Below, one piece after another: positions 5,536 to 51,991 of a DNA stretch of 64,000 nucleotides. Under the pieces are notes generated by a model. The model worked only from the letters and a program-made list of their open reading frames with translations, had not been told where the DNA came from and ran no database searches. This DNA comes from Acidobacteriota bacterium (GTDB lineage: Bacteria > Acidobacteriota > Vicinamibacteria > Vicinamibacterales > UBA2999), in contig JAKFYH010000054.1 of the NCBI GenBank assembly GCA_021730945.1, forward strand, positions 1 to 64,000, in the 5' to 3' direction. Each line of letters starts with the position of its first letter. Position 1 is the stretch's first letter. The position numbers and the translations under genes were made by a program.

Positions 5536-6522
<987 letters not shown>

Positions 6523-12161: not shown

Positions 12162-12202
12162 GGTGCGGGGGTGCGGGGGTGCTGAAGTGCTGAAGTGCTG
12201 AC
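12162..12202 (+). repeat. Tandem GTGCTGAA repeat after a stop codon
   Basis: Directly after the radical SAM stop TAA come two GTGCGGGG units and then three GTGCTGAA-type units. The same family appears on the minus strand after the M19 gene at 25255-25284. Confidence 0.85.
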
Positions 12203-12216
12203 ATCCGGAGAATACG

Positions 12217-13338: not shown

Positions 13339-13369
13339 CGGCAGGCGGACCCGCGAATTTGGCGATTTC

Positions 13370-13555
13370 GTGATGTGGTGAGTTGGTGATTTGGGTCTCG
13401 GATTTGGAGAGTTTGGGATTTGGGATTTGGGATTTGGGATTTGGGATTTGATGGATGTGATTTTGTGATTGGCAAGCTCGCGACTGTTTGGGAGCAATCG
13501 TCAAATCAGCAAATCACAAAATTCCGCAACCCAAATCACCAACTCACCACATCAC
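13370..13555. repeat. Long inverted repeat between convergent genes
   Basis: A 27-base arm (13370-13396) is repeated exactly, inverted, at 13529-13555. Between them are five TTTGGGA units (13412-13446). The right arm starts next to the TGA stop of the minus-strand gene. It is AT-richer than the surroundings and could stop transcription from both sides as one large hairpin. The rest of 13339-13567 holds no gene. Confidence 0.85.
13412..13446 (+). repeat. Five TTTGGGA tandem repeats
   Basis: Five perfect heptamers in a row in the spacer of the long inverted repeat. They are telomere-like in look only; the setting is an ordinary convergent intergenic gap. Confidence 0.9.
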
Positions 13556-13567
13556 AAGATCACCAAA

Positions 13568-14194
13568 TCATTCAACCACCACTGGCGCCACGCAGTCGGC
13601 CTTGGCGCCCGCGCCGATCGGCATCCAGCCCGAGAAGTCGGGCTGGGCCGCCATCATCAGGACCGGCGACAACGCCTCTGGGCTGAGCGCCGGCCCGGCC
13701 TGCTGCGCCAGTGCCGTACGAAACGCCTCGAATCCAGCCACGCTGAACAACACGTAATACAACTGACGCGTCGCCCCCATGGCCGACACGCGCCGATAGC
13801 CGACACAGGTGGGCACAATCGCCGCGCGGTCCAGGCCGGCCGACTGCGCCAGGCTCAACACCATCTCCGGTGTCATCGTCGATGGCAGCTCCTGCCGGAG
13901 GGCGAGCGGAATGCCGGGCTGGCTCGGCGTGCCCATCGACTCCATCTGCCGGCTGAACAACTGCCGGAACAGGTTCATCGGCAATTCGGGCGGCGGCCGC
14001 AGCGACACCACGGAGCCCTGCGAATCGGCGGCAGTGTCGAGGCCAAGGGTCCACCCCTGCAGATGCCGCGCCGACACCTGATAGGGCTCGGCCCGCGCGT
14101 CCTGCGCCGACCGTACGAATAACCACCCACCGCCGGCCAGGACGGTCAAGACGATGACCGCCTTGATCGCGGGATGAGTCTTCGGCGCCGCCAT
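13568..14194 (-). CDS. Membrane-anchored protein of unknown function
   Basis: The 208-residue product has an N-terminal membrane anchor (AIKAVIVLTVLAGGGWLFV, about residues 9-27) and then an extracytoplasmic region with two cysteines. No family is recognised. The ATG overlaps the stop of the upstream cytochrome c gene by one base (TGATG), so it is co-translated with it and may act with it at the membrane. Its stop TGA is the first triplet of the repeat TGATTTGGTGA that forms one arm of the long inverted repeat. Confidence 0.7.
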   Translation of the reverse strand: MAAPKTHPAIKAVIVLTVLAGGGWLFVRSAQDARAEPYQVSARHLQGWTLGLDTAADSQGSVVSLRPPPELPMNLFRQLFSRQMESMGTPSQPGIPLALRQELPSTMTPEMVLSLAQSAGLDRAAIVPTCVGYRRVSAMGATRQLYYVLFSVAGFEAFRTALAQQAGPALSPEALSPVLMMAAQPDFSGWMPIGAGAKADCVAPVVVE

Positions 14195-21107: not shown

Positions 21108-21120
21108 CCTTCAGCCGTTC

Positions 21121-21162
21121 TGCGTCATCTGCGTCATCTGCGTCATCTGTGTCATCTGCGGC
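21121..21162 (-). repeat. Tandem 9-mer repeat (GATGACRCA) after a stop codon
   Basis: On the minus strand the sequence from the stop of the MxaK-like gene reads TAGGCCGCAGATGACACAGA and continues as GATGACGCA units, four in all. This matches the repeat at 10454-10485 almost base for base, including the TAG. Confidence 0.9.
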
Positions 21163-28453: not shown

Positions 28454-28636
28454 GGCGGGCCTGCAGCCCTTCTGGGACTCGGTCCTTCGGACCTTCGTGG
28501 GGCTCGGGCGCTTCGCGCCCTCGTGGGGGGGAAATGCTCGTCCCCACGAACGCGGTGAGCCCCAGGACGCTCGCGTAGCGAGCGACACCGACGAGCGCCG
28601 CAGGCGCGAGTCCCACCGGCTGCAAGAAATCCCGCC
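28454..28636 (+). other. 183-nt multibranch structured element
   Basis: It begins right after the TAG of the anti-sigma gene. Perfect stems: 28454-28459/28631-28636, 28462-28468/28618-28624, 28473-28480/28608-28615 as outer helix; inside are hairpin 28481-28493, stem 28499-28505/28557-28563 enclosing hairpins 28506-28520 and 28521-28549, then hairpins 28568-28584 and 28595-28607. Four of the hairpins have 3-base loops. It could be an RNA, a DNA repeat element, or a complex terminator. The rest of the gap to 28694 has nothing clear. Confidence 0.75.
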
Positions 28637-28694
28637 GACCCCGTTCTAAGGGAAAGGGCCACGAACGGCCCCCAATTCTCAAGGAGCGGTTCCC

Positions 28695-50254: not shown

Positions 50255-51991
50255 ATGGACACCTTGCAGCCCAATGGCCGGCGCCGCGGACGCGGCCTCT
50301 GGCCGACGTGGCGTGGTTCCACTGCCCTATTGACCGCGGCCATCCTCCTGGCCTGCGCCAGCTCGGCTCTGGCCGGCAACCGGCGCGCGCGGCTGTCGTC
50401 TGACCTCACGGCGCATCTCAACTCGAGCTCGTCGGCTGCGGTCGATGTGATCGTCTCGGGATCGCAGGAGCGGATTGACCGCCTGGTGAAGCGTCACGGT
50501 CTCAAGGTGAAGAAGGTGCTCTCGTCGGGTGCCGTCTTGCGGGTATCGCGACGGGCGCTTGAATCGCTGGCCAACGACCTGGATCTCGAGGCCGTGTCCG
50601 GCGATGCGATCGTGCGGTCGATTGACCAGGGCAGGGCTCGGGGCACAGGGGCCAGCGCGGCCTCCCCCACGGGCGTGGGAGCCGCCGGCCTGACGGCGGA
50701 GGTGATTGGCGCCGACGCCGCGTGGGCGGGCAGCATCCAGACCCTTGGCGCGGTGGATGGGCGCGGCATTGGTGTGGCGATCATCGACAGCGGGATTGCC
50801 GACCATCCGGCGCTGCGCGACCGGGTGGTGGCGGCCGTGGATTTCACCGACCCCCGGGGCCGCGGCCACGACAGCTACGGGCACGGCACGCACATCGCCG
50901 GCATCATCGCGGCGCGGTCGTTCAAGAACACCGCCGAGGGCGCCGGCAGCGGCATGGCGCCTGGAGCGCACTTGATCAGCCTGAAGGTGTTGGGCGCCGA
51001 CGGCACGGGCATGGCCAGCAGCGTGATCGAGGCGATCGATTGGGCGATCCGTTATCGCAAGCCATTTGGCATTCGCGTGTTGAACCTGTCGTTGGGAGCG
51101 GCGCCGACGCAGAGCTACAAGGACGACCCGCTGTGCCAGGCGGTCGAGCGGGCGGTGAAGGCCGGGCTGGTCGTGGTGACCTCGGCGGGCAACTACGGCA
51201 CCAACGAACAGGGCCAGTTGATTTTCGGCAGCGTCACCTCGCCGGGCATCTCGCCGTATGCGATCACGGTCGGGGCCGTGCGCACGCAGGGTACGGCGGA
51301 CAAGTCGGATGACGAGGTGGCGCCGTGGAGTTCCAAGGGCCCGACGCTGGTGGATCACATTGTCAAGCCCGACCTGGTGGCGCCCGGCTCCAAGATCGTG
51401 TCGACGGCGGCGGCGGCGGCGACGTTGATGACGCAGTTCCCGGAGCGCTTCATCGACGGCCCCGGCGCGCGCGACTACTTCTCGATGAGCGGCACCAGCA
51501 TGGCGGCGGCCGTGGTCAGCGGAGCGGCGGCGCTACTGCTTGACGGGCGCGGTGACCTGACGCCACTGCAGGTGAAACTGGCGCTGCAGGCCAGCGCCGA
51601 CTTCATGCCGTCGGCCGGCTTGCTGGCAGGTGGCGCGGGGAGCCTGGATCTGGAAGGGCTGGAGGCAATTCTAGACAAGGTTCGAGTTCTAGACGCAGTC
51701 GGACCGCGCGCATTCGCATACCCTGGAGCTGCCAAGTCCCTAGTCGATTCGAACACCATCATCTGGGGTGACACCATCATCTGGGGCGACACCATCATCT
51801 GGGGCGACACCATCATCTGGGGCGACACCATCATCTGGGGTGACACCATCATCTGGGGTGACACCATCATCTGGGGCGACACCATCATTTGGGGTGACAC
51901 CATCATTTGGGGTGACACCATCATTTGGGGTGACACCATCATTTGGGGTGACACCATCATCTGGGGCGACACCATCATCTGGGGCGACTAA
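50255..51991 (+). CDS. Secreted S8 subtilase with C-terminal (TIIWGD)13 repeat
   Basis: The 578-residue protein has an Arg-rich N-terminus and signal helix (STALLTAAILLACASSALA), a propeptide-like region (about 45-140), and a subtilisin catalytic domain with Asp178 (IIDSGIADH), His210 (YGHGTHIAG) and Ser415 (SGTSMAAAVVSG). Residues 501-578 are 13 perfect TIIWGD hexapeptides up to the last codon. The repeat may form a beta-solenoid or be a sorting/adhesive tail. From about codon 470 the base composition drops and rare CTAG appears, matching the following genes. Start ATG at 50255, after GGAGA, is preferred over TTG at 50204. Confidence 0.93.
   Translation: MDTLQPNGRRRGRGLWPTWRGSTALLTAAILLACASSALAGNRRARLSSDLTAHLNSSSSAAVDVIVSGSQERIDRLVKRHGLKVKKVLSSGAVLRVSRRALESLANDLDLEAVSGDAIVRSIDQGRARGTGASAASPTGVGAAGLTAEVIGADAAWAGSIQTLGAVDGRGIGVAIIDSGIADHPALRDRVVAAVDFTDPRGRGHDSYGHGTHIAGIIAARSFKNTAEGAGSGMAPGAHLISLKVLGADGTGMASSVIEAIDWAIRYRKPFGIRVLNLSLGAAPTQSYKDDPLCQAVERAVKAGLVVVTSAGNYGTNEQGQLIFGSVTSPGISPYAITVGAVRTQGTADKSDDEVAPWSSKGPTLVDHIVKPDLVAPGSKIVSTAAAAATLMTQFPERFIDGPGARDYFSMSGTSMAAAVVSGAAALLLDGRGDLTPLQVKLALQASADFMPSAGLLAGGAGSLDLEGLEAILDKVRVLDAVGPRAFAYPGAAKSLVDSNTIIWGDTIIWGDTIIWGDTIIWGDTIIWGDTIIWGDTIIWGDTIIWGDTIIWGDTIIWGDTIIWGDTIIWGDTIIWGD
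51755..51988 (+). repeat. 13 tandem 18-nt repeats encoding TIIWGD
   Basis: The unit is ACCATCATCTGGGGCGAC. Copies differ only at synonymous third bases (GGT/GGC, ATC/ATT), in blocks: copies 8-11 are all ATT...GGT. That pattern suggests recent expansion with selection on the peptide. Confidence 0.97.

Follow-up and report, generated by a model that had tools for sequence, protein, structure and literature searches.

The gap between two converging genes

The window, a 64,000-nucleotide stretch of an Acidobacteriota draft genome (G000; 4.73 Mb in 67 contigs), contains two converging genes whose stop codons, TAA on the plus strand and TGA on the minus strand, leave a gap of 229 bp. Most of this gap is occupied by a quasi-palindrome (Table 1). 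An initial annotation of the DNA had pointed to a perfect 27-bp inverted repeat with TTTGGGA repeats between its arms, each arm following the 3' end of a gene. Direct reading confirmed the repeat, whose first copy is GTGATGTGGTGAGTTGGTGATTTGGGT and is identical to the reverse complement of the second; the TTTGGGA tract comprises five units, and the stops of the two open reading frames lie as described. A repeat finder extends the 27-bp core to 49-nt arms that are 88% complementary and 114 nt apart. The match had also been called too long for chance, and our hand estimate agrees: about 5e-11 exact inverted matches of 27 bp are expected in 1.4 kb of random sequence.

Table 1. Features of the convergent gap and its flanking genes, in window coordinates
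Feature	Position	Strand	Description
Left convergent gene, DUF1028 protein (PF06267), 373 aa	12217..13338	+	ORF and Pfam
Left arm	13357..13405	+	Degenerate octamers TGATGTGG TGAGTTGG TGATTTGG ...; begins 18 bases past the stop of the left gene
27-bp core, copy 1	13370..13396	+	Sequence; first 20 bases used as genome-wide query
(TTTGGGA)5	13412..13446	+	Five GGG tracts joined by 4-nt loops, as in the G-quadruplex pattern; nothing equivalent on the right side
Inner left arm	13460..13473	+	Pairs with 13509-13522 at 93%
Inner right arm	13509..13522	-	Pairs with the inner left arm, 13460-13473
Right arm	13520..13568	-	Octamers of the left arm on the minus strand; outer end shares one base with the TGA of the right gene (13570-13568)
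27-bp core, copy 2, inverted	13529..13555	-	Sequence, repeat finder and genome search
Right convergent gene, 208 aa	13568..14194	-	ORF; no Pfam hit (E 0.001)

Relatives of the left protein were found in 21 named loci. Fourteen of these are titled Acidobacteria, Acidobacteriota or Acidobacterium, one is labelled Vicinamibacterales and one Sulfopaludibacter, which we take to belong to the Acidobacteriota; five carry other labels. The MAG records L123, L127, L128, L136 and L137 are assigned to other phyla and encode relatives 71 to 82% identical to the left protein, as acidobacterial MAGs do. Their phylum labels may be wrong.

A dispersed family of octamer arrays

We searched G000 with the first 20 bases of the core. 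Allowing up to three mismatches, there were 36 overlapping matches, against 1 for a reversed control; by hand count they form 27 arrays, that is, the two window arms and 25 others. Only the window arms carry the exact 20-mer, and the next three copies have one mismatch. The repeat unit is a degenerate octamer, TGATTTGG and its variants. Conservation across neighboring words in G000 and three congeners is 91 to 98% at the second, third and last positions; the fifth base equals the consensus in 52 to 55%. This contrast between word positions is weaker in two further genomes, G047 and G057 (last base 64%, fifth 67%). The initial annotation had seen a private event between two gene tails. That view is not supported, as the arms belong to a family of dispersed inverted arrays that also occupies co-directional and divergent gaps.

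Genes were called with a home-made gene finder. None of 22 octamer clusters lay inside a predicted gene in 427 kb of stretches chosen for their hits; under a looser word pattern the count was 12 of 95 over all sets and, for the G000 set chosen by hits, 1 of 30. Because many loci were chosen for holding the octamer, these densities are not genome estimates, and 400 kb of G000 sampled regardless of matches held one octamer cluster. We printed 16 octamer gaps. Several of them, whether convergent, co-directional or divergent, form a palindrome over most of their length: TGATNTGG words lead off from the left gene, and inverted words from the right gene. When such a gap is co-directional, the right arm is antisense to the gene that follows. 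Other gaps, for example those in L011, L023 and L027, have arrays on a single strand. In L020 (9692-9723) and L022 (near 9914), octamer words continue into the final codons of the upstream genes, whose TGA stop codon is thereby supplied by the array. By eye, the gap at L017 9654-9926 contains a tRNA-like sequence with an octamer array downstream of it.

Arm order and polarity

We surveyed arm order in 79 octamer gaps from six genomes (G000, G005, G006, G008, G047 and G057), most of the loci having been chosen for the octamer and not for its order. All 28 two-armed gaps have TGATTTGG on the left and CCAAATCA on the right (p = 7e-9). The other 51 carry arrays on one strand, and the palindrome is thus not obligatory. 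In these, the 5' end of the array is nearer a gene in 36 cases and not in 15 (p = 0.005). A looser cluster definition gives 65 for this polarity and 15 against. These counts include gaps that are not independent, namely the orthologous gaps of L015 and L156 and a near-identical pair in L160. Divergent gaps account for 2 of 21 octamer gaps in G000 and 8 of 20 in G057.

Facing pairs of TTTGGGA arrays exist in other genomes of the order. Read by eye over 20 loci, with seven whose matches fall outside called gaps left out, six gaps of G020, G021, G022 and G033 are AAATCCC-left and two printed G040 gaps are TTTGGGA-left; the remaining printed heptamer gaps hold one array. The opposite order in G020, G021, G022 and G033 indicates that polarity varies by vocabulary or species.

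The two arms resemble each other beyond the family background

The window arms are each other's nearest relatives found. In nine two-armed gaps of G000, the mean arm alignment score was 22.7 within gaps and 16.5 between gaps (permutation p = 0.0005); two-armed gaps were defined differently here and in the arm-order survey, which counts six in this genome. None of 144 cross-gap arm comparisons in G000, which cover two-armed gaps only, shared 20 bases, and the longest shared string was 19, against 27 in the window. The match is thus beyond chance for its own family too, within this genome. The other genomes are less uniform: G008 and G057, with three gaps each, show no excess of arm similarity within gaps, and G005 has two two-armed gaps only, one of them with 20 shared bases. 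One of 12 cross-gap comparisons in G008 shares at least 20 bases (25 in this case), and long shared strings can therefore form between gaps as well.

The family explains the vocabulary of the arms, and local copying, by template switching or inverted duplication, best explains their identity. Since this mutual identity exceeds the family background in G000, the window arms were probably copied locally or homogenized. Duplication-inversion or gene conversion, as invoked in the initial annotation, may account for this identity; it leaves the source of the vocabulary and the arm order unexplained. Quasi-palindrome template switching, a mutation process reported in yeast and not an element (PMC3820800), would homogenize arms in the way proposed here. 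A search for a close strain in which to follow concerted change of the arms found none.

Orthologous gaps and distribution

In three congeners the two orthologous genes also lie next to each other and converge, and the gap measures 53 bases in G005, 18 in G006 and 26 in G003. Identical gap sequences and the identity values suggest that G006 is MAG Baikal-deep-G12 (L121) and that G003 is MAG Baikal-G1 (L120). None of the three gaps contains octamers, which indicates that these were gained on the G000 lineage (or lost repeatedly). The gaps of G005 and G006 contain a GC hairpin, GTCCGGCT..AGCCGGAC, and in each case 0.5% of plain shuffles fold equally well; the G003 gap shows no significant fold by the same test. 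In G005 a second hairpin lies inside the GC hairpin. Another hairpin inside a hairpin was seen in G057 (L182 2920-3103), where a CACGGAGA/TCTCCGTG palindrome is nested at the center of a TGATTTGG palindrome.

We also considered the GC hairpin as a repeat of G000 and rejected it. It occurs at four exact places, and allowing 2 mismatches gave 20 matches against 55 per strand for the reversed control, that is, no enrichment. Its description as "REP-like" is a judgment from shape only. In the G005 sample, GTCCGGCT lies near the edge of 8 of 174 gaps.

The inverted arms close to either end of the gap would suit a MITE with terminal inverted repeats. The orthologous gaps lack octamers and two of them hold the GC hairpin, and the site therefore looks replaced, not cleanly empty; comparison of the orthologous gaps by eye yielded no alignable junction at which to read a target-site duplication. 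Different vocabularies fill the same gap in G000 and G005 at L093 1847 and 15907 (by eye), and one gap (L015/L156) has kept its octamer palindrome in both G000 and G008. The distribution of the family is patchy. It was found in 17 of 60 genomes with up to two mismatches and in 10 of 396 genomes of the phylum with up to one, G000 being included in both counts; only one of these 10 lies outside the order, with a single site.

Other short repeats are present in the window. The gap before the DUF1028 gene (12162-12216) carries GTGCTGAA/GGTGCGGG octamers, and the orthologous gap of G005 is 29 bp long (GGCGGGTGGGGCCGG...). A TCTGCGTCA nonamer array at 21108-21162 corresponds to a gap of 0 bp in G005, and a long GC-rich gap with inverted parts at 28454-28694 (GGGGCTCGGGCGCTTCGCGCC...) has a relative in the orthologous gap of that genome. 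The 18-bp unit ACACCATCATCTGGGGTG is repeated 13 times in near-perfect copies at 51753-51988, and CGTCGG occurs in about 13 copies at 5848-5926.

Folding and a possible role at 3' ends

As RNA, the gap has a minimum free energy of -105.4 kcal/mol (z = -8.0 against dinucleotide shuffles). We folded gaps of 30 to 450 bp in samples of G000 (400 kb) and G005 (nearly 400 kb). After three hit-chosen loci were dropped, strong folds (z < -4) numbered 8 among 36 convergent gaps, 25 among 207 co-directional gaps and none among 73 divergent gaps; before that, 2 of 83 divergent gaps folded strongly. Gaps with at least one gene 3' end thus differ from divergent ones (33 of 243 against 0 of 73, p = 1.3e-4), and convergent and co-directional gaps show no significant difference (p = 0.11). 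By eye, strongly folding gaps of both genomes include other vocabularies built in the same way, and some of the strong folds are GC hairpins or other structured gaps outside the quasi-palindrome class. Alignment detected inverted halves in 7 of 174 gaps of G000 and 9 of 142 of G005 (one of the nine divergent) at loci not chosen by match.

The gap shows neither a U-tract nor the GC-rich stem, short loop and T-run of an intrinsic terminator; the terminator scan returned one weak 5-bp stem on the minus strand, at chance level (shuffles: mean 0.4, SD 0.7). Among 52 co-directional inverted-repeat gaps, wobble-compatible and incompatible transitions between arms numbered 77 and 74 (p = 0.87). As G-U-compatible changes are not in excess, selection for RNA pairing is not supported. 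Rfam gave no match at the gathering score, and the sub-threshold matches, six microRNA precursors and one snoRNA-type family, are read as an effect of the long hairpin. Both converging transcripts would enter this one hairpin, so that they could share it as a 3'-end structure. Such a role suggests itself for a convergent gap and is plausible but unproven, with mixed support: closeness to both stops, strong folding, the rarity of strong folds among divergent gaps in G000 and G005, and a hairpin of other sequence in two congeners speak for it, and the divergent octamer gaps of G057, the missing U-tract and the null wobble result against it.

Proposed explanation and alternatives

Our preferred reading, which we hold tentatively and at somewhat less than an even chance, is that the locus carries a dispersed polar intergenic quasi-palindrome, with (TGATNTGG)n as its left half and the inverted counterpart as its right half, whose arms were homogenized locally. 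A palindromic copy would have arrived, or nucleated, between the two stop codons. Slippage would have expanded the octamers and later the TTTGGGA heptads, and a template switch across the hairpin during replication would have copied one arm onto the other, leaving the 27-bp identity. The long hairpin would have taken the place of the compact GC hairpin found in two congeners, and it may act as a shared 3'-end structure: an aid to pausing or termination, a block to antisense read-through, or a means of 3' protection. No enzyme that would mobilize the octamer element was identified.

A broader proposal, which we consider possible and rather doubtful, is that the order harbors an unnamed general class of quasi-palindromes that take up most of a gap and use many short degenerate vocabularies, fixed in order, exchanged between orthologous gaps and produced by polar synthesis or insertion without an RVT_1 enzyme. 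The vocabularies recognized by eye are TGATNTGG, CAGGAGATCA, CCGCAGATGACACAGATGA, CGGGAGTC, CACGGAAA, GGGCTCGGCGC and TTTGGGA, and the arm order of those other than the octamer looks fixed within species, also by eye.

Among the alternatives, a selected bidirectional terminator is the one to which we give most room, unlikely as we hold it to be. Each converging gene would keep its own array, and the inverted repeat would be a by-product of facing tails. The arms do lie close to both stops, the gap folds strongly, strong folds are absent from the 73 divergent gaps of the survey, and a GC hairpin takes the same place in G005 and G006. Yet similar palindromes occupy co-directional gaps, where the right arm is antisense, and divergent gaps of G057; convergent gaps do not fold strongly more often than co-directional ones by a significant margin; and the missing U-tract and wobble signature, like the G003 gap with no significant fold, also speak against it. 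Independent simple-sequence expansion at each tail, with shared words drawn from a small vocabulary, would suit a family with few common words and frequent single arrays, as well as the G008 pair with 25 shared bases. It leaves unaccounted for the order of 28 to 0 and the 144 cross-gap pairs of G000 that never share 20 bases, and variation confined to particular word positions in the genus, weaker in G047 and G057, is unlike random decay; we rate it as quite improbable.

Movement of a REP/BIME-type element by a RAYT transposase seems less probable still. The element is intergenic and palindromic, few of the G000 octamer gaps (2 of 21) are divergent, and G000 has five matches to Y1_Tnp, the family that includes RAYTs. 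Against this, the gap contains, by eye, no 20-40 bp hairpin that carries GTAG or CGTC as an unpaired tag, and G057 is rich in octamer palindromes and has no Y1_Tnp match (at 74% completeness). Three of the five Y1_Tnp genes were inspected. The flanks of one hold a different GC-hairpin array, and octamers directly border none of them. The Y1_Tnp gene on C10 is surrounded by tandem GC hairpins that belong to another family, which leaves the link to the octamers unsupported; of the five matches, two lie 1 to 2 kb from an octamer array, each time with another gene intervening. Y1_Tnp matches occur in 45 of 60 genomes, G000 included; by hand count, 15 of the 17 genomes with octamers and 30 of the 43 without have one, which shows no clear association. 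At L027 6808-8284, a Y1_Tnp gene stands between tandem GGAGAGCGACGGCTTTAGCCGTCGCT-like hairpin arrays in what looks like a REP-RAYT arrangement. Healing of a break in a telomere-like manner, with a reverse transcriptase adding GT-rich words outward to both ends before they were joined, would match the GT strand that leads away from the gene edge on both sides of two-armed gaps, a polarity of the kind that fused telomeres show. We think it highly improbable, given that G000, G005, G006, G008 and G057 all bear octamers and gave no RVT_1 match (against 5 in G047 and 1 in G002) and that the AAATCCC-left heptamer palindromes of G020, G021, G022 and G033 have, by eye, the opposite polarity. Finally, long palindromes are hard to assemble and the genome is a draft in 67 contigs; an assembly artefact is nonetheless barely credible, because unlinked loci and several other assemblies show the same construction.

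Comparison with known systems

REP and BIME palindromes are described as intergenic, mostly in co-directional and convergent gaps, and as possibly transcribed hairpins (Di Nocera et al. 2013, PMC3733652), and frequent GT pairing in REP stems is cited as a sign of transcription (in PMC3733652). The element described here is likewise intergenic and palindromic. It differs in that its arms are tandem octamers over about 50 nt and not GTAG- or CGTC-tagged hairpins of 20-40 bp, and in that G-U-compatible changes are not in excess between the arms of the 52 co-directional inverted-repeat gaps. The TAACTGA repeats of Beggiatoaceae are, as reported, also abundant intergenic arrays of a heptamer, patchy among lineages (PMC4679880). 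Unlike the octamer element, they are repeated in direct orientation, mostly immediately upstream of start codons, and include a single indirect repeat (MacGregor 2015, PMC4679880).

Among the papers listed by the literature searches, no title or beginning of an abstract mentions octamer palindromes in Acidobacteriota, and six repeat strings of the class used as a text query matched one paper, on eye development. The strict arm order and the replacement of one palindrome by another in an orthologous gap provide a testable handle on how intergenic palindromes form, and on whether convergent 3' ends need any hairpin rather than a particular sequence.

The GGGAATC repeats of Xanthomonas are reported as 70 and 75 pairs in two genomes, in "convergent orientation" with one array per strand (Rehm et al. 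2015, PMC4692102). In the same account, the heptamer arrays lie nearer to the 5'-side ORF regardless of its orientation, few lie between divergent ORFs (PMC4692102), and the Nostoc heptamer GGGGA(C/T)T is treated alongside the Xanthomonas repeats (PMC4692102). Both systems have a short unit (6-9 nt) repeated in tandem, dispersed and mostly non-coding, with arrays facing each other on opposite strands, and the TTTGGGA tract is the same kind of G-rich heptamer. The arms described here differ in being degenerate octamers without tandem GGG tracts, and only the TTTGGGA spacer, which could still form a G-quadruplex, fits that pattern. We therefore rejected quadruplex formation as the common cause of the arrangement shared with Xanthomonas. 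The gap arms are part of a polar class that is spread over the genome and stands close to the heptamer pairs of Xanthomonas. The polar inverted layout of G4-forming heptamers also holds for arrays free of G-tracts, in another bacterial lineage.
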